In this document: positions 1,925 through 47,502 of the stretch, in pieces | Layout of the letters: every line of letters starts with the position of its first letter | How positions within the stretch are numbered: position 1 is the first letter of the stretch | The notes under the pieces: generated by a model | Database searches by the model: none | Told to the model about the DNA's origin: nothing | The model's input: only the letters and a program-made list of their open reading frames with translations | Position numbers and translations under genes: made by a program | Source of the DNA: an uncultured Bacteroidota bacterium | GTDB taxonomy: Bacteria; Bacteroidota; Bacteroidia; Bacteroidales; 4484-276 | Direction: 5' to 3' | Length of the DNA stretch: 64,000 bases | NCBI GenBank assembly: GCA_903944895.1 | Contig: CAJATL010000206.1 | Coordinates: 1-64,000 of the forward strand

Positions 1925-4069
1925 ATGAAAAACGCATCTTTACTTCTTACCGCTTTCTTAATCATGGCCGGTACTTTTTACCTGCCGGCCCAGGACAAGC
2001 TTTTTACCACCAGCGATTATCTCAACCGCGAATTGTATCCCAAATCCATCACCAACCTTGCCTGGCGTGGTGATCTGGACGTTTTTACTTATGTTGAGAA
2101 AAATGTTCTTTTCCAAAAATCGGCTGCAAAACCTGAAACGATGGATACCATCATGACCCTGGAAACGCTGAATGCTTTGCTGACTGGCGCTAAACAGGAG
2201 GAAATCGGGCGTTTTCCGGCAATAAACTGGATCGACTTCAACCGGTTTTATTTTACCGATCAGGCTAAGATTTTCAGATACGATTTCAGGGATTCCACCT
2301 TAACAAAAGCTAACGAATACGACGAAAACGGAGAAAATGTGACCCTGGATGAAACGAATCTTCGTGTCGCCTACACGATCGAAAATAATTTGTTTGTGGC
2401 TATCGGCGGGCAGACCATCCAGGTTTCGGATGAAAAGAATAGTGGCGTAGTTTATGGTCAGGTTCCATCGCGAAATGAGTTTGGAATTAATGCGGGCGCT
2501 TATTGGTCGCCCGGCGGAAAGTTTCTGGCCTTCTACAAAACCGATCAAACCGAAGTTGCCGATTATCCTTTGGTTGATATTGACGACCGTATTGCACAGG
2601 CTGCACCGATGAAATATCCCATGGCAGGCACGAAAAGCCAGAAAGTTAAACTCGGGATTTTCAATCCTGACCTCAACGAGGTTATTTACCTGCAAACCGA
2701 GGGACCCGAAAACCAATACATCACCTCGGTAAGCTGGGATCCTTCGGGGGAGTTTATGTATGCCGGCATTTTAAACCGCGACCAGAATCATCTGGAGATG
2801 AACAAATATGACGCTAAAACCGGGAAATTTGTCAGCACTTTATTTGAAGAAAAAAACGAGCGATACGTCGAACCGATGAGTGGTTTGATTTTTCTTGAAA
2901 ATGATGCAACAAAATTTATCTGGCAAAGCCGCCGCGATGGCTGGAACCATCTTTATCTTTATGAAAATGACGGCAAACTGCTGAAACAGATTACCAGCGG
3001 AGCTTGGGATGTCACCGACTTTTCAGGCTTTGATCCTGACGAAAAATCAGTTTATTTTCACGCCACCAAAGACAGTCCACTCGAAAGGCATCTTTATAAA
3101 GCTGAACTCAAATCAGGAAAGACCGAAAAAATCACCGTTGGTGCAGGAGTTCATAACGCCAATCCAGCTAAAAGCGGAAACTTTTTTATTGATGCGTTCA
3201 GCAGCCTGGAAATGGCCCGTGCTTATTATCTTTTGGATAAAAACGGCGAACGACTTGCAGTTTTGAAAGAAGACATAAATCCTTACAAAGACTACAAACT
3301 CGGCGAGATGAATATTTTCAGCATCAAAGCCGACGATAGCCTCACCGATCTTTATTGCCGTTTGATAAAACCGGCAGATTTTGATCCATCAAAAAAATAT
3401 CCTGTTATGATTTATGTTTATGGCGGCCCTCATGCCCAGATGATCACCAAATCGTGGACAGGTGGCGCGGGATTCTGGCTGAATTACCTGGCGCAGCAGG
3501 GTTATGTGGTTTTTACCCTCGACAACCGTGGCTCGGCAAACCGTGGATTTGAGTTCGAGAGCATCATCCACCGGCAGTGTGGCGAAAAAGAAATGGCGGA
3601 TCAGATGACCGGTGTGAAATATCTCAAATCGCTCGGTTATGTCGATTCTACGCGGATTGGTATTGATGGCTGGAGTTATGGTGGTTTTCTGACGATTTCG
3701 ATGATGCTGCGCAATCCCGGGGTTTTTAAGGCCGGATGTGCCGGCGGTCCGGTAATCGACTGGAAATGGTACGAAGTGATGTACGGCGAAAGATACATGG
3801 ACACGCCCATGCAAAATCCTGATGGTTACGAAAAATCTTCGCTGATAAATTATGTGGGTGATCTTGATGGAAAATTACTCATCATTCATGGAACCAACGA
3901 TAACACCGTGGTCTGGCAAAACAGCCTCACTTTTCTGGATGAGTGCATCAATCAGGGCAAACAGGTCGATTATTTTGTGTATCCCGGCGCCGATCACAAC
4001 ATGCGTGGCAAAGCAAGGGTTCATCTATTTGATAAGATTTCGGGATATTTTAACGATTATCTGAAATAA
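1925..4069 (+). CDS. Dipeptidyl peptidase IV (S9B family)
   Basis: A 714-residue secreted serine exopeptidase that releases Xaa-Pro or Xaa-Ala dipeptides from peptide N-termini, normally in the periplasm. A signal peptide covers residues 1-22 (ending LPAQD). The DPP IV-type beta-propeller spans about 90-450 and an alpha/beta-hydrolase domain about 490-714. The catalytic residues are visible: nucleophile Ser584 in GWSYGGF, Asp659 in GTNDNTV and His691 in GADHNM. The length matches Bacteroidetes DPP IV enzymes. It lies 43 bp behind the CDF gene and converges on the T9SS paralogue at 4409, with the 21-bp repeat array between. It fits the peptide-degrading character of the neighbouring M14 carboxypeptidases. 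Confidence 0.95.
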   Translation: MKNASLLLTAFLIMAGTFYLPAQDKLFTTSDYLNRELYPKSITNLAWRGDLDVFTYVEKNVLFQKSAAKPETMDTIMTLETLNALLTGAKQEEIGRFPAINWIDFNRFYFTDQAKIFRYDFRDSTLTKANEYDENGENVTLDETNLRVAYTIENNLFVAIGGQTIQVSDEKNSGVVYGQVPSRNEFGINAGAYWSPGGKFLAFYKTDQTEVADYPLVDIDDRIAQAAPMKYPMAGTKSQKVKLGIFNPDLNEVIYLQTEGPENQYITSVSWDPSGEFMYAGILNRDQNHLEMNKYDAKTGKFVSTLFEEKNERYVEPMSGLIFLENDATKFIWQSRRDGWNHLYLYENDGKLLKQITSGAWDVTDFSGFDPDEKSVYFHATKDSPLERHLYKAELKSGKTEKITVGAGVHNANPAKSGNFFIDAFSSLEMARAYYLLDKNGERLAVLKEDINPYKDYKLGEMNIFSIKADDSLTDLYCRLIKPADFDPSKKYPVMIYVYGGPHAQMITKSWTGGAGFWLNYLAQQGYVVFTLDNRGSANRGFEFESIIHRQCGEKEMADQMTGVKYLKSLGYVDSTRIGIDGWSYGGFLTISMMLRNPGVFKAGCAGGPVIDWKWYEVMYGERYMDTPMQNPDGYEKSSLINYVGDLDGKLLIIHGTNDNTVVWQNSLTFLDECINQGKQVDYFVYPGADHNMRGKARVHLFDKISGYFNDYLK

Positions 4070-4132
4070 ATTCAGGGTAAAACATCCATTTTTCTTAAGA
4101 AATCCTCAGATTTTCCAGATATTTCTTTTAAG

Positions 4133-4312
4133 AATACCGGTATTTTTCACAGGAATACCGGTATTTTTCATAGGAATATCGATATTATTCACAGGAATAC
4201 CGGTATTCTTCACAAGAATATCGATATTCTTCACAGGAATACCGGTATTCTTCACAAGAATATCGATATTCTTCACAGGAATACCGGTGTTTTTCACAAG
4301 AATATCGGTAAT
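4133..4312. repeat. Nine 21-bp tandem repeats, each centred on a 12-bp palindrome
   Basis: The 12-bp cores start at 4133, 4154, 4175, 4196, 4217, 4238, 4259, 4280 and 4301, an exact 21-bp period. Five units carry AATACCGGTATT or a variant and the others AATATCGATATT or a variant, in the order A A B A B A B A B; the last two are imperfect. Spacers read roughly TTCACAGG or TTCACAAG. A to B needs two changes placed symmetrically, so dyad symmetry is preserved. 21 bp is two helical turns, so all dyads face the same side of the DNA. It lies between two convergent genes. In one minus frame it reads as a seven-residue repeat, which I regard as incidental. Confidence 0.95.
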
Positions 4313-4408
4313 AATTATTGGACTGCTTGTTTTATTTTGAAGGCATTAGTAAATCTGACGCTTTTCACTACCTCGTCAGGTTTTGGTTGTGAATATTCAA
4401 CCCGACAA

Positions 4409-6676
4409 TTATTCAATCACGAGCTTTTCGACTTTAACAAAATCATCGCTTTCGATTTTAACGAGGTAAATGCCTTTTGGCGAATTGGAAAGGTCGATCT
4501 GTGTTTTTAGCGAAAAGGCCGTTTCATAAACCTTCCGACCTGTTAAATCAAAAATGCAAACATTAAATTTCCGGTTGCCGTCACCTGCAACAAATTCAAC
4601 CAGCCCGCTTCCGGGGTTTGGGAAAAATGAAATGCTCGTATTGGAATTTTCGCCGATGTAGGTTGGATTGAACACAATTTTCGCAACAGCCGATAAACCG
4701 TCTGTGATAAAACCGCCAACCGACGAAGGCATGGTTGCATCAAAATCAAATCTGATTTCAAATTCCTGGTTTATTATTGGTCGGAATAGTTTAAAGTTTA
4801 AAGCTTCGTAATCCTCAAAACCATCTTTTTCGAAGGTGGTTTGGTCGTCACCAAAAACCTGCAACAAATAGCTTTGCGAAACATCAGTAATCTGAACCAT
4901 GCCGGCACAAATGCCTTCTGCGGTAAAAGCGCCGATAATATCGCCAGCCATCAATTTACTGAGAACCGCCGAAGGTAATGCGATAGAGTGGCTCGATGGC
5001 GACAATACCGGATCATTCCAGGGTGAATTATTTTTAAAAACAACATCAGGAATATCTTCATCTTTAAAAGAAGTACAAGCCGGAAAAGTAGCCGTAAACC
5101 CCGACGAAACCGCCATCAGGTAAGCTTTGCCAGGCTGCAGGGTTACCAGTGTTTTGATGTTCACCGAAGGCCAGTAAATGTTTGTCCCGGCGATTTCTTT
5201 AATGACAGTAATTTTATTCAGATTGGCAGCAAAAAGCGATTCAACCTGCATGTTGCAGTCGCTGAGTACCGGGATTAAATTCCATCCTGTAACCAGGGTG
5301 AGGATTTTGGAGGATAAGTCGGTGCCGATAACCGGCAAAATGACTGGCTGGGTAACTTTAATTTTGTAACCCGAACCTGTACTCCATTTTCCGATGGTAT
5401 TAATGTTCTGAGCCGGCCAATAGGTTTTGGTGAGATTTTGAACGATCACCAGCGAATTTGTAATGGGCGCCATTATCCTGCGGATCGAATCGGCACCTGT
5501 TCTCGGGGAAGCACTCGGGATATTGTTCAGGGGCAAATCAGTACTTGGTTTCAGGTAACTCGAAATGCCGCTCCAGCCTGCAGTAATTTCCAGATTATGT
5601 GTTTTATAGGCGGGAAGCGAAATTATTCTGGAAGTTCCGTAATTTCCGTATTTGTAAAGATCTCCTGAAAACATCGTTGGAAAGGCAGTAAATTCCTGTT
5701 GGGTGGTCGAAGAAGAAAACACCTTCCAGTTCAGTACTTCCGAATCGGCAAAGCCATCTTTAGCTGTAGTAAATGCATCATCGCCATGAGCTAAAACAGC
5801 AGAACTTGTGGCACCACCTGAGTATTTTCCGGCACCTCCACAATGCAACTGGCCATCGTCGCCAACATAAAAAACGCCTATCCAGTCGCCCTCATTTAAG
5901 GGTATTCCACAAATATTCGGATTTGCCTGAGGCATTACTGCGATAATGTGAAAATTACCTGTATTTACATAAACCCAATTGGGCGGTCGGGGAAAGGAGC
6001 GAGGCATAGCTGCATAATCCTGGTTGTAAATGTTGTTGGTAACATTGGTGTGGGTACGGCTTAATGGGTTAAAATTATAATCGGCTGTGGTTGGTGTTAA
6101 CGTGTAACTTCCGCAAGGTACAACCATAACCGAATACTGACCCAGCGCGTTTGTGGTATCCTTGTAGCCGTTGCCAAAATCAATGATAAGATCAGTTATG
6201 GGCTGATTGTTGGTTGTACTGGTGATGGCGCCGTTGATCGAAAAACCAGCAGGGTTGGGTGTTCCCACAAAATCCTGATTTGGTGTATTTGCTTTTACTT
6301 TGGTGTAAGTTCTGGATGAAGGCGAAAAAACGTAAAATCCGCAATAATAGGGTGTAACCGTACCTGTCCATTGTGATACTACAAATTTTTCGTAATAACC
6401 CAATTCGTTGGTAACAACCGAGCCCAGACCTGAAAATGTTACAGTAACGCCAACCAGCGGAACAAGGCTGCCAGCAACCGAATGCTTTACTATTCCTGAT
6501 ATCTTATAATCGATCAGGACCTCCGGCGTTGTAACGTCATTTGAAATAAAACTGATGACTTCTGAGGTTTTGTTCAAATCAGCCTTATTATCAACTTCAA
6601 CAACAGGGTTTGGATTAGTGCCGGCAAAAACAAAAATCCACAAAACACCAAAGACAACTCCCGGTAAATATCTCAT
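4409..6676 (-). CDS. T9SS-secreted protein, tandem paralogue A
   Basis: A 755-residue protein, taking the start at 6676 because the sequence then aligns with paralogue B from MRYLPG onward and has the same length; an upstream Met at 6739 adds 21 non-homologous residues. The order is: signal peptide; two carboxypeptidase-regulatory-like beta domains (about 45-120 and 130-195); a first module with GDWIGVFYVGDDG...CGGAG and KDGF; a linker with NLTKTYWPAQN and SGYKIKVT; a second module with GDIIGAFTAEG...CAG, GDDQTT and KDGF; and a type A sorting tail (SFFPNPGSG...GIYLVKIES). It is probably exported by the type IX system and anchored or released at the cell surface. The function of the repeated module is unknown. 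It is the first of three head-to-tail copies. Confidence 0.85.
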   Translation of the reverse strand: MRYLPGVVFGVLWIFVFAGTNPNPVVEVDNKADLNKTSEVISFISNDVTTPEVLIDYKISGIVKHSVAGSLVPLVGVTVTFSGLGSVVTNELGYYEKFVVSQWTGTVTPYYCGFYVFSPSSRTYTKVKANTPNQDFVGTPNPAGFSINGAITSTTNNQPITDLIIDFGNGYKDTTNALGQYSVMVVPCGSYTLTPTTADYNFNPLSRTHTNVTNNIYNQDYAAMPRSFPRPPNWVYVNTGNFHIIAVMPQANPNICGIPLNEGDWIGVFYVGDDGQLHCGGAGKYSGGATSSAVLAHGDDAFTTAKDGFADSEVLNWKVFSSSTTQQEFTAFPTMFSGDLYKYGNYGTSRIISLPAYKTHNLEITAGWSGISSYLKPSTDLPLNNIPSASPRTGADSIRRIMAPITNSLVIVQNLTKTYWPAQNINTIGKWSTGSGYKIKVTQPVILPVIGTDLSSKILTLVTGWNLIPVLSDCNMQVESLFAANLNKITVIKEIAGTNIYWPSVNIKTLVTLQPGKAYLMAVSSGFTATFPACTSFKDEDIPDVVFKNNSPWNDPVLSPSSHSIALPSAVLSKLMAGDIIGAFTAEGICAGMVQITDVSQSYLLQVFGDDQTTFEKDGFEDYEALNFKLFRPIINQEFEIRFDFDATMPSSVGGFITDGLSAVAKIVFNPTYIGENSNTSISFFPNPGSGLVEFVAGDGNRKFNVCIFDLTGRKVYETAFSLKTQIDLSNSPKGIYLVKIESDDFVKVEKLVIE

Positions 6677-6844
6677 TGTACAAAAAGTTTTATAATGAAA
6701 AGAAAAAATTCTTTCACGGAAAATAATTTTCCAGCCCACGCAAAAGTAATGTCATCAAATTATAATTACAAAATATTTTAACCGAAAATGTAGCCTCGAA
6801 ATCTGCCCGAAGGCTTCCGGTGTTATGACCGGAAACCGAAATTT

Positions 6845-6936: not shown

Positions 6937-9204
6937 TTATTGGATGATTAGTTTTTCGAATTTTATAAAATCGGCACTTTCAATTTTAACCAGATAAATT
7001 CCTTTGGGCGAATCTGAGACATCAATCAGGGTTTTACCAGAAAATGTTGTTGCATCAACCTTTTGGCCCGTCAAATCCAAAATAGTAACTTTAAATTTCC
7101 GGTTGCTGTCGCCGGCAACAAACTCAACCAGTCCGTTGGCAGGATTCGGGAAAAATGAAATGCTGGTATTTGCGTTTTCGCCGATGTAGGTTGGATTGAA
7201 CACAATTTTCCCAACAGCCGACAAACCATCTGAGGTAAAAACGCCATCTGATGAAGGCATGGTTGCATCAAAATCAAACCCGATTTCAAATTCCTGGTTT
7301 ACCTGAGGCCTGAAAAGTTTAAAGCTTAAAAATTCGCTTTCTTCAAAACCATCTTTTTCCAGGGTGGTTTGGTCGTCACCAAAAACCTGCAACAAATAGC
7401 TCTGTGAAACATCGTTAATCTCAACCAGGCCTGCACAGGAGCCATCTTTGGTAAAAGCGCCAATAACATCACCTGTCATTAACTTTCCCAGAACCCCCGA
7501 AGGCATTGCAATCGAGTGATTTGATGGTGTCATCGCAGGATCATTCCAGGGTGAATTATTTTTAAATGGCGTCTGTACATTTTCTTCAGCTTTAAAAGCA
7601 GCACAAGCCGGAAAAGTAACCGAAAAATCAGCGGAAACCATCATCAGGTAAGCTTTTCCTGTTTGCAGGGTAAGCAAGGTTTTTATGTTCATGGCGGGCC
7701 AGTAAATAAACGACCCGGCAATTTCTTTGATAATGGTAATTTTGTTGAGATGGGCTGCAAAAAGCGACTCGATTAGTATGTCGCATTCGCTGAGCACAGG
7801 AACCAAATTCCAGCCTGTAACAAGACTTATCGTTCTTGGTGAATAGTCACAGCCATGAATCGGCAAAACAATCGATTCGGTGACTTTGATTTTGTAACCG
7901 GATGTTGCACTCCATTTACCGATGGTGTTAACATTCTGGCTTGGCCAATAGGTTTTGGTAAGATTTTGAACAATGGATAATTTGCTGACGACGGGCATCA
8001 TGATCCGCCGGATTGAATCAGCTCCTGATCTTGGTGATGCGCTTGGGATGTTATTCAATGGCAGCGAGGTGGCTGGTTTAAGATAACTCGAAATGCCGCT
8101 CCATCCTTGCGGAATAACCAAATTGTGGGTTTTGTATGCCGGAAGTGAAATAATCCGGGTTAAACCCATGCTTCCCCATCTATATGAATCCCCTGAAAAT
8201 GTTGTTGGAAAAGCAATAAATTCCTGTTGGGTTGTCGAAGAAGTAAACACTTTCCAGTTCATTACTTCAAAACTGGCGAAGCCATCTTTAACAGGTGTTG
8301 TAAAGTCGTCGCCCTGGGCAATAACAGCCGTGCTGACTGTTGTTCCCTGATACATTCCTGCACCACCACAATGCAGCAGTCCATCATCACCAACATAAAA
8401 AACGCCGACCCAGTCTCCTTCATTTAAGGGTGCACCACAAATAGTCGGATTTGCGTAAGGCATTACCGAAATAATATGGGCACTTCCGGTAAGGGTATAA
8501 TCCCAGCCTGGCGGGCGAGGGAAGGAGCTGGGTGTAGCTTCATAATCCTGATTGTAAAAATTGGTAGTTATGTTTGGATAATTCCGGCTTAGCGGGACAA
8601 AATTATAGTCGGCTGAGGTTGGTGTTAAAGTGTAACTACCGCAAGGCTTTACCTGAATGGAATATTGCCCCTGCGAATTGGTGGTGGCTGTGAAGCCGTT
8701 GCCAAAATTGATGTTGTAATCAGCCAGTGGCGAATTATTGATGGTTTCGATAATCGTTCCATTGATTGTAAACATTTGTGCAGGTGTACCAACAAAATCC
8801 TGGTTAACAGCATTTACCTTGATTTTGGTGTAAGTGCGGCTGGCAGGAGAAAAATTATAATATCCGCAATAATACGGAGTAACCGTTCCCGTCCATAGCT
8901 CGGGTACAAATTTTTCATAATAACCCGTGTCGTTGGTAACTACCGTCCCCAGACCCGAGAATGTAACAGTAACTCCGGCAAAAGGCGGAAGCGAATTTGA
9001 CCCTCCATGCTGAACTTTACCTGAAATCTTCAAATCAACAAGCACTACGTCCTGTTCAGGAAGCAGGTATTCCAAAGAGTTGGTTGTACCTGAGTTTTGA
9101 AGCGATTCAAATTGATTATCATTGGCTTTAGGAGTATTTGGATGAACACCGCTCACCACAAAAGCTGATAAAAAACAAAAAACAATTCCAGGTAAATATC
9201 TCAT
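6937..9204 (-). CDS. T9SS-secreted protein, tandem paralogue B
   Basis: 755 residues, collinear with the copy at 4409: signal peptide (MRYLPGIVFCFLSAFVVSG), two regulatory-like beta domains, module 1 (GDWVGVFYVGDDG, CGGAG, KDGF), a linker with NLTKTYWPSQN, module 2 (GDVIGAFTKDG, CAG, GDDQTT, KDGF) and a sorting tail (SFFPNPANG...GIYLVKIES). The C-terminal half is much more alike between copies than the N-terminal third, including long stretches of near-identical DNA, which suggests recent duplication or gene conversion. Adhesion or glycan binding is possible because the modules have no visible catalytic residues, but that is a guess. It is 202 bp from paralogue C and 260 bp from A, so the copies are probably transcribed separately. 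Confidence 0.85.
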   Translation of the reverse strand: MRYLPGIVFCFLSAFVVSGVHPNTPKANDNQFESLQNSGTTNSLEYLLPEQDVVLVDLKISGKVQHGGSNSLPPFAGVTVTFSGLGTVVTNDTGYYEKFVPELWTGTVTPYYCGYYNFSPASRTYTKIKVNAVNQDFVGTPAQMFTINGTIIETINNSPLADYNINFGNGFTATTNSQGQYSIQVKPCGSYTLTPTSADYNFVPLSRNYPNITTNFYNQDYEATPSSFPRPPGWDYTLTGSAHIISVMPYANPTICGAPLNEGDWVGVFYVGDDGLLHCGGAGMYQGTTVSTAVIAQGDDFTTPVKDGFASFEVMNWKVFTSSTTQQEFIAFPTTFSGDSYRWGSMGLTRIISLPAYKTHNLVIPQGWSGISSYLKPATSLPLNNIPSASPRSGADSIRRIMMPVVSKLSIVQNLTKTYWPSQNVNTIGKWSATSGYKIKVTESIVLPIHGCDYSPRTISLVTGWNLVPVLSECDILIESLFAAHLNKITIIKEIAGSFIYWPAMNIKTLLTLQTGKAYLMMVSADFSVTFPACAAFKAEENVQTPFKNNSPWNDPAMTPSNHSIAMPSGVLGKLMTGDVIGAFTKDGSCAGLVEINDVSQSYLLQVFGDDQTTLEKDGFEESEFLSFKLFRPQVNQEFEIGFDFDATMPSSDGVFTSDGLSAVGKIVFNPTYIGENANTSISFFPNPANGLVEFVAGDSNRKFKVTILDLTGQKVDATTFSGKTLIDVSDSPKGIYLVKIESADFIKFEKLIIQ

Positions 9205-9406: not shown

Positions 9407-11641
9407 TTATTGAATAATCAGTTTTTGGACCTTTACAAAATTGTCGCTTTCAATTTTAACGAAATACATTCCTTTTGGAGCATTCGAAAGATTCATCCGG
9501 GTTTTTCCCGAAAACGAGGTTTCATCAACCTTCTGACCTGTCAAATCCAAAATTGTAACAGTAAATTTCCGGTTGCCATCACCTGCAATAAATTCAATCA
9601 TCCCGTTACCGGGATTGGGGAAAAATGAAATACTGGTATTGGTATTTTCGCCGATGTAGGTTGGATTGAATACAATTTTTCCTGCAACCGATAATCCATC
9701 AGTGGTAAAAACGCCGTCGGATGAAGGCATGGTTGCATCAAAATCAAACCCGATTTCAAATTCCTGGTTTACCTGTGGCCTGAAAAGTTTAAAGCTTAAA
9801 AACTCGCTTTCATCAAAACCATCTTTTTCCAGGGTGGTTTGATCGTCACCAAAAACCTGCAACAAATAACTCTGCGAAATATCGTTAATCTGAACCATGC
9901 CAGCACAGATGCCATCCTGGGTAAAAGCCCCGATAACATCACCAGTCATTAATTTGCCCAGAACGCCCGAAGGCAGGGCAATCGAGTGATTTGATGGGGT
10001 CATGAGCGGTTCATTCCAGGGCGAGTTATTTTCGACAACCGTATTTTGGATTTCTTCATCTTTTAACGAAGTACAAGCCGGGAAAGTAACCGAAAAATTA
10101 GAGGTAACCCTCATCAGGTAAGCTTTTCCTGCCTGCAGGTTAAGCAGTGTTTTTATGTTAACCGCCGGCCAGTAAATATTTGAACCTGCTATTTCTTTGA
10201 TTACCGTAATTTTATTCAGATTGGCTGCAAAAAGCGATTCGATCGGCACATTACAGTCGCTAAGCACGGGAATGAGATTCCAACCGGTGATAAGGCTAAC
10301 TGTTTTTGGAGAATAATCACATCCGGTGATCGGTAAAGTGACAGGCTCAGTTACCTTAATTTTATAGCCCGAAACGGAACTCCAGTTGATAATTGTGTTA
10401 ACACTCTGGCTTGGCCAATAAGTTTTGGTGAGATTTTGAAGAATCACTAATTTGGATAAAATCGGCGCCATCAGCACCGTAATTGTAGCTGTACCGGTCC
10501 GTGGCAAAATATAGCTTGAAATGCCACTCCAGCCTTGCGGGATTTGCAAACTATGGGTTTTATTTATAGGCAGTGAAGAAACGATTGATAATCCACCGGG
10601 ATACCATTTGTTATTGGAAGTTAATAACCCGCCTGTTTCGAAAACCGGAAATGCCGGATATTCAAGCTGAGTAGTGTTTGTTGAGTAAACTTTCCATGTT
10701 ATTAATTCACCATAGGTAAACCCATCTTTTGCTGGTGTGTAAGTATCGTTGCCTAAAGCTGTAACCTGCGTATTTTCGGTTCCGGTCCACAAACCGGCAC
10801 CTCCACAATGCAGCAGGCCATCATCACCTGTATAAAAAACACCTATCCAGTCGCCGGCCTGGATGGGCACGCCGCAATAAGCTGGATTAGCAGATGTTCG
10901 TATCGAAATAATATGCACTTGTTCAGCATTAGCAGGATGATCCCAGCCTGGAGGCAAGGGCACAGAACCAACGGGTTGAGCCTCATAATCCTGGTTGTAA
11001 AAACTCTGGATAAGGTCTGGATAGCTTCGGCCTAGCGGAGAAAAGGTAAATTCATTCGAAGTTGGCGTTAAAGTGTAGCTTTCACAAGGCATGACTTCAA
11101 GGGAATATTGTCCCTGAGAATTGGTAGTAGTTGTAATGCCATTACCAAAATCGACGGTAAAGTTTGCCATACCCAAACCCGTACTTATATTGATAAACGT
11201 TCCGTTGATGATGTATTGATCAGTCGGGGTAGCCGTAAAATCCTGCCCGAGATAATTTAGTTTAACGAGGGTGTAAGTCCTGTTTACAGGAGAAAAACTA
11301 TATTGATCACAAAAATAGGGGGTCACTGTTCCTGACCAGTTTCTTTCTACCACAAACGAAAATTCCCCAAGTGCATTTGTGGTATCAATAACTCCGTCTG
11401 AACAGGTCATGATAACTCCTGAAAATGGAACCAATGGTGAGCCTGAATGATAAACTTTTCCGGAAATAGTATAGGTAATCAGAACATCAGGAAATAAAGC
11501 TCCTTTTTCGAATAAAGCATTTGCATCAGGTGATTTCGATAAATCAACTTTAGGGTTGTTTAATCTTGTGGAGTTTTGAGTGTTTTCAGCAAAAACAAAA
11601 ACCCATAAAAAACAAAAAATAAGTACTGTTGTAGATTTCAT
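9407..11641 (-). CDS. T9SS-secreted protein, tandem paralogue C
   Basis: 744 residues and the most divergent of the three tandem copies. It has a different signal peptide (MKSTTVLIFCFLWVFVFAE) but the same architecture: two regulatory-like beta domains, module 1 (GDWIGVFYTGDDG, CGGAG, KDGF), a linker, module 2 (GDVIGAFTQDG, CAG, GDDQTT, KDGF) and a type A sorting tail (SFFPNPGNG...GMYFVKIES). It lacks the linker segment around PLNNIPSASPR that A and B share, having PRTGTATITV instead, so A and B are probably the younger pair. It has its own terminator. Its role at the surface is unknown. Confidence 0.85.
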   Translation of the reverse strand: MKSTTVLIFCFLWVFVFAENTQNSTRLNNPKVDLSKSPDANALFEKGALFPDVLITYTISGKVYHSGSPLVPFSGVIMTCSDGVIDTTNALGEFSFVVERNWSGTVTPYFCDQYSFSPVNRTYTLVKLNYLGQDFTATPTDQYIINGTFINISTGLGMANFTVDFGNGITTTTNSQGQYSLEVMPCESYTLTPTSNEFTFSPLGRSYPDLIQSFYNQDYEAQPVGSVPLPPGWDHPANAEQVHIISIRTSANPAYCGVPIQAGDWIGVFYTGDDGLLHCGGAGLWTGTENTQVTALGNDTYTPAKDGFTYGELITWKVYSTNTTQLEYPAFPVFETGGLLTSNNKWYPGGLSIVSSLPINKTHSLQIPQGWSGISSYILPRTGTATITVLMAPILSKLVILQNLTKTYWPSQSVNTIINWSSVSGYKIKVTEPVTLPITGCDYSPKTVSLITGWNLIPVLSDCNVPIESLFAANLNKITVIKEIAGSNIYWPAVNIKTLLNLQAGKAYLMRVTSNFSVTFPACTSLKDEEIQNTVVENNSPWNEPLMTPSNHSIALPSGVLGKLMTGDVIGAFTQDGICAGMVQINDISQSYLLQVFGDDQTTLEKDGFDESEFLSFKLFRPQVNQEFEIGFDFDATMPSSDGVFTTDGLSVAGKIVFNPTYIGENTNTSISFFPNPGNGMIEFIAGDGNRKFTVTILDLTGQKVDETSFSGKTRMNLSNAPKGMYFVKIESDNFVKVQKLIIQ

Positions 11642-47412: not shown

Positions 47413-47502
47413 GGAGTACTTGGAGTGCCTTGAGTGCCTAAAGTACTTAGAGTACTTAGAGTGCCTAAAGTACTTGGTGTGCCTAAAGTACTATGAGTGC
47501 CG
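47413..47502. repeat. Ten 9-bp degenerate tandem repeats
   Basis: Ten units with consensus NNAGTRCYT (R=A/G) follow in exact 9-bp register after the stop of the polyamine gene. No terminator is seen. The next 350 bp up to 47857 hold no recognisable gene; an 81-codon frame at 47556-47801 has no features. Confidence 0.8.

Follow-up and report, generated by a model that had tools for sequence, protein, structure and literature searches.

A self-complementary 21-bp intergenic tandem array, probably a minisatellite, with a 42-bp higher-order unit between convergent genes of an uncultured Bacteroidales bacterium

The window is the whole stretch of DNA that was analysed, 64,000 nucleotides from an uncultured bacterium of the order Bacteroidales. 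Near its start, a spacer of 339 bp houses a tandem array. The flanking genes end at 4069 (+ strand) and 4409 (- strand) and are convergent, in agreement with the preliminary description. The following features are located in this region.

1925..4069, + strand: S9 peptidase (DPP IV family) upstream of the array (Pfam PF00930/PF00326)
4132..4310, no strand assigned: tandem array, 21-bp unit GAATAYCGRTATTCTTCACAR, 8.5 copies, better described by a 42-bp unit with 4.2 copies (Tandem Repeats Finder and unit table)
4132..4152, + strand: unit 1, type A, with an ACCGGT core (unit table)
4174..4194, + strand: unit 3, type B, with an ATCGAT core, opening the alternating A/B series (unit table)
4279..4310, + strand: degenerate end of the array with broken dyads, covering unit 8 (AATACCGGTGTT) and the first part of unit 9 (AATATCGGTAAT)
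4135..4310, + strand: region predicted to form one long RNA hairpin, -84 kcal/mol (prediction only)
4351..4385, no strand assigned: possible, weak terminator hairpin (AAATCTGACG...CGTCAGGTTTT) in the part of the spacer that separates array and T9SS-type gene (sequence inspection)
4409..6739, - strand: Por_Secre_tail (T9SS sorting signal) protein, convergent with the S9 peptidase (Pfam PF18962)

The T9SS-type gene belongs to three adjacent paralogues of the T9SS-sorted type on the - strand (4409-6739, 6937-9204 and 9410-11641), which are 60-69% identical. The putative terminator hairpin at 4351-4385 appears when the whole spacer is folded and is absent from the local fold.

Tandem Repeats Finder describes the array either by a 21-bp period (8.5 copies, 84% matches) or, better, by a 42-bp unit (4.2 copies, 92% matches). 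The 21-bp unit is a self-complementary segment composed of a 14-bp near-palindrome and a 7-bp spacer. The array as a whole is nearly self-complementary, sharing 74% identity with its reverse complement. Two types of unit are present. Type A corresponds to GAATACCGGTATT(T/C)TTCACA(G/A), with CATAG in one unit, and type B to GAATATCGATATT(C/A)TTCACAG. Along the array the units run A A B A B A B A B', alternating strictly from unit 2 to unit 9 and ending with a decayed unit (B'). Seven of the nine contain a perfect 12-bp palindrome (four AATACCGGTATT, three AATATCGATATT). The other 63.8 kb of the window contain 14 perfect 12-bp palindromes, and 15.6 are expected for the whole window. A pattern of four AYCGRT hexamers phased at 21 bp gives six matches, and none in 100 shuffles. 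The array sequence is found at a single locus of the 7.17-Mb genome. The nine dyad-bearing units of the preliminary description are thus correct as a tandem array of 8.5 copies, and the symmetry is absent from units 8 and 9.

Types A and B are told apart by positions 6 and 9 (C-G to T-A), which are partners in the dyad, and often also by position 21. The chance that two random substitutions generate a compensated dyad pair is about 0.015. Re-pairing of left and right arms among the units gives p values of 0.054 (nine units) and 0.017 (eight units), which overstate the evidence, as the units of an array are copies of each other. Uncompensated changes are present in units 8 and 9. In view of the 42-bp order of the units, the A and B variants are not nine independent observations. 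Type B always resides inside an A+B unit of 42 bp. The ACCGGT/ATCGAT change is thus most simply explained by one event, a double substitution that was copied several times with the 42-bp unit, and not by many independent compensations. Co-variation of the arms was significant in none of twelve other arrays, three of them from a genome of the same order (G214) and nine from a set that includes the sister species, Bacteroidales, Aminicenantes and Bacilli. An open reading frame of 63 amino acids on the minus strand (4106-4297) is unsupported, as the A/B variants alter its amino acids (NTGIPVK/NIDILVK).

The window species is represented by one genome and its genus by one other, the sister species G001. 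There, a diverged 21-bp array (GAGTACCGGTACAACTCTCAG) occupies positions 1-216 of contig C711 and is 70% identical to the window array. It comprises about ten units (at least 10; the contig begins inside the array) and lies downstream of the homologous T9SS-type gene, 80 bp from its 3' end. One G001 homologue of the three T9SS-type paralogues carries three in-frame stops. The neighbouring homologous proteins of the two species are only about 60% identical. Compared to the window unit, pair 3-12 is changed from A-T to G-C in a compensated manner (A3-T12 to G3-C12). The CCGG core and its neighbours are unchanged and the inner 10-bp dyad is retained, whereas most units have lost outer pairs 1-14 and 2-13. 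The claim that the dyad itself is conserved is correct for the inner 10 bp in the sister species only, and the other palindromic arrays tested lack co-variation of the arms. Judged from the sequences, selection on pairing is possible, its basis being a single event inside the array and a single pair that differs between the species.

The S9 gene of G001 is located on a different contig, and the 240 bp that follow it contain no array; conservation of the array's position is therefore seen on one side only. Convergent S9 and T9SS-type genes are also present in two genomes from another genus of the same family, where they overlap or abut (G010) or are separated by a gap of about 20 bp without an array (G011). 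These near-zero, array-free spacers suggest that the array was probably gained in the genus of the window species.

A selected RNA element would explain the symmetry at the level of the transcript. The peptidase-side RNA would form a long 3'-end hairpin that blocks exonucleases or convergent read-through, and its pairing would be under selection; on the basis of modelled folds, we regard this as possible but doubtful. The + strand of the array folds with -84.3 kcal/mol, compared to -37 +/- 11 kcal/mol for column-permuted arrays, of which 1 in 300 is as good. The - strand folds with -62 kcal/mol (average of column-permuted arrays, -40), and the z-score of the array fold is -12. Deviations from Watson-Crick pairing in the window are five G-T and zero A-C, and the G-T deviations pair on the + strand; five terminator-like sites are found where 0.5 are expected. 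The G001 array is separated from the T9SS-type gene by a strong terminator-like hairpin that is bidirectional (AAAAAACCTCCGGAA...TTCCGAAGGTTTTTT), so that the array would fall outside the transcript of this gene. On the other hand, the strand preference is not conserved, as the - strand of the G001 array folds slightly better (-99.7 versus -92.3), and the deviations in G001 include A-C pairs. No clear U tract follows the window array, and tandem arrays of near-palindromes fold into a long hairpin by construction. Rfam returned only sub-threshold matches for the array (best 36.5 bits, gathering score 116.6 bits). The transcript-structuring element of the preliminary description stands as a predicted structure with a possible role. 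A coding repeat would offer another source of the apparent compensation, since TAY-CGR-TAY codons (Tyr-Arg-Tyr) are palindromic in themselves. The array would then be a degenerate heptapeptide repeat, EYRYSSQ, in which ACCGGT and ATCGAT correspond to the synonymous TAC CGG and TAT CGA (both Tyr-Arg). In the frame GAA TAC CGG TAT TCT TCA CAR, all A/B and CAG/CAA changes are in third positions; G001 reads EYRYNSQ, and its GAG, CGA and TCT/TCC changes are synonymous as well. However, stops interrupt this frame in the window (a TAA immediately ahead of unit 1, a TAG within unit 2 and a TAA within unit 9) and in G001 (TAG before unit 9). There is no in-frame start codon between the stops in the window, and variation among units at positions 11, 14 and 19 is non-synonymous. 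The encoded EYRY-EYRY pattern is absent from the other 392 of the 393 genomes of the order searched. The stops and this absence from the rest of the order mostly refute a coding repeat, which we consider very unlikely.

A dimeric DNA-binding protein was proposed in the preliminary description as the reader of a helically phased operator array. The dyads are spaced by 21 bp, equal to two helical turns, and the inner 10-bp dyad is retained in the sister species. The placement of all centres on one DNA face is arithmetic and not evidence of function. The genome contains one array of this sequence only. The earlier suggestion to look for both dyads in other spacers yielded no occurrence of the 12-bp dyads elsewhere in the 1.28 Mb sampled of the 7.17-Mb genome, and the 10-bp dyad ATACCGGTAT occurs there once (0.77 expected), so isolated dyads are not in excess. 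Furthermore, the array sits between 3' ends and not at a promoter, and other 21-bp arrays of the order mostly have non-palindromic cores. Judged from sequence, an operator array is thus unsupported and unlikely. Also unlikely is a conserved intergenic class of TACCGGTA-centred arrays with a spacing of two helical turns, kept throughout the order by a common dimeric protein or RNA-processing factor. Its basis is the window and the sister species at 21 bp and G214 at 22 bp in 73 places. If such arrays shared an order-wide reader, they would constitute an undescribed chromosomal element. Of 393 genomes of the order, 16 have four AYCGRT hexamers phased at 21 bp and 2 have them phased at 22 bp. Heptanucleotide repeats, which account for several of the 16, and possible coding repeats, with their multiples of 3, confound these counts, and no conclusion on a preference for two helical turns is drawn from them. 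The dispersed 22-bp TACCGGTA element of G214 also gives some support to a mobile element, either REP-type or a MITE of the BrickBuilt kind. In G214, 73 TACCGGTA-N14-TACCGGTA pairs are dispersed through the genome within an element of about four 22-bp units with shared flanks. Like the window array, it has tandem units, the TACCGGTA core and a second dyad, TTTGNNNNCAAA, that resembles ACCGGTATTCTTCACAAGAAT of the window unit; the likeness is one of sequence only. The elements differ from the window array in their period of 22 bp, their number and their conserved, MITE-like flanks, and by sequence they look like a MITE-like family comparable to BrickBuilt. The window array, in contrast, is present in a single copy in its own genome, and the longest exact inverted word between its flanks is 8 bp. 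REP and BIME elements are short palindromes of intergenic regions, dispersed in many copies, and their RNA forms hairpins close to the ends of genes. The window array resembles them in its intergenic, hairpin-forming palindromes, and differs as one tandem locus without many dispersed palindromic copies. Collections of plasmids and phages contain no match to the array. BrickBuilt is a minisatellite/MITE of Porphyromonas gingivalis with a 23-bp unit at 19 dispersed loci (PMC4596501). It shares with the window array the tandem intergenic repeat without spacers, the predicted long stem-loops, a near-helical unit length (23 versus 21 bp, compared by description) and, at some loci, a position between convergent genes and near T9SS (PorSS CTD) genes. 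BrickBuilt is described there with a leader, a tail and IS5-type terminal inverted repeats, whereas the window array has the long stem-loop and neither such ends nor dispersed copies. A mobile element is the least likely of these explanations, and we consider it very improbable.

The array consists of head-to-tail copies of a unit within the 10-60 bp range of minisatellites, and we read it as a self-complementary intergenic minisatellite, an instance of an already known general kind of repeat. It shares with bacterial VNTRs and minisatellites the tandem repetition, the degenerate end units and the higher-order units. Its nearly self-complementary unit is unlike VNTRs generally and unusual among the arrays of its own genome. 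On balance, we favour a hairpin-prone minisatellite whose present function, if any, is at most that of a 3'-end RNA hairpin, and we hold this to be somewhat more probable than not. The 42-bp higher-order unit speaks directly for propagation of the repeat by recombination, one of the options of the preliminary description. A 21-bp self-complementary segment would have been duplicated in tandem within the convergent spacer, and one copy would have gained the paired change C6T/G9A, plausibly via template switching inside a hairpin. In yeast, quasipalindrome mutations that extend the identity between arms are described (PMC3820800). The A+B pair of 42 bp may then have been re-duplicated by slippage or unequal recombination and the array homogenised in 42-bp blocks. 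Judging by the two relatives outside the genus, the spacer may thereby have expanded to 339 bp from only a few bases. Any present function would at most be that of a bulky hairpin towards the 3' end of the peptidase RNA. Three observations argue against this explanation. The 21-bp period and the TACCGGTA core persist in two species, and a neutral array might have been lost over the distance that separates their homologous neighbours. In addition, one more compensated pair, at positions 3 and 12, separates the window from G001. The third is the separate contig of the G001 S9 gene with its array-free downstream sequence, which leaves conserved position visible on one side only. If the array is a minisatellite only, it exemplifies how apparent covariation in a tandem array arises from one event copied along, a trap when structure or protein binding is deduced from repeats.

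Intergenic arrays with units unrelated to that of the window array are frequent in the 1.28 Mb sampled of the window's own genome and mainly have 14-bp (heptanucleotide) units; their frequency is in line with a minisatellite. Three further 21-bp arrays in this sample have units without dyads. Intergenic 21-bp arrays with unrelated non-palindromic units lie between divergent genes at L083:7944-8057 and L086:4409-4701. Many 7/14-bp heptanucleotide arrays are present at L285:7364-10198 (G000:C168) and on other contigs, one stretch being nearly 3 kb long. A near-identical 15-bp array, ACAAAGTTGTAACTT, with 5.9 copies and 100% matches, is partly dyad-symmetric (L079:15838-15925, G000:C206:79838-79925). 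The window itself contains an 18-bp intergenic tandem repeat with a 9-bp substructure (AGTACTTAGAGTGCCTAA, 47415-47501).

The G214 element includes TACCGGTAGTTTGTGCACAAACTACCGGTA, a perfect 30-bp palindrome, and its shared flanks (CATTGAAAATGA...TTAATATT...; GAAAAAGGGGG) are found in both orientations. Example loci are L342:1500-1573, L343:1500-1573 and L357:1501-1574; five of the eleven contexts read are between convergent genes.

Across the whole collection, scanning for four phased AYCGRT hexamers detected 21-bp-phased arrays across many phyla; many of these arrays are coding or are built on heptamers. Candidatus Aminicenantes MAGs contain such arrays at L148:2503-2712, L169:7444-7526 and L176:7092-7195. 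Their units are nearly all different and each retains ACCGGT (11 of 11 distinct units in L148), a core for which the search pattern itself selects. Several 21-bp-phased AYCGRT arrays per genome are present in Sporosarcina luteola and further Bacillales (L170, L168, L151, L177, L190 and others), as exemplified by TTTTATCGATCACTTTC in L170.
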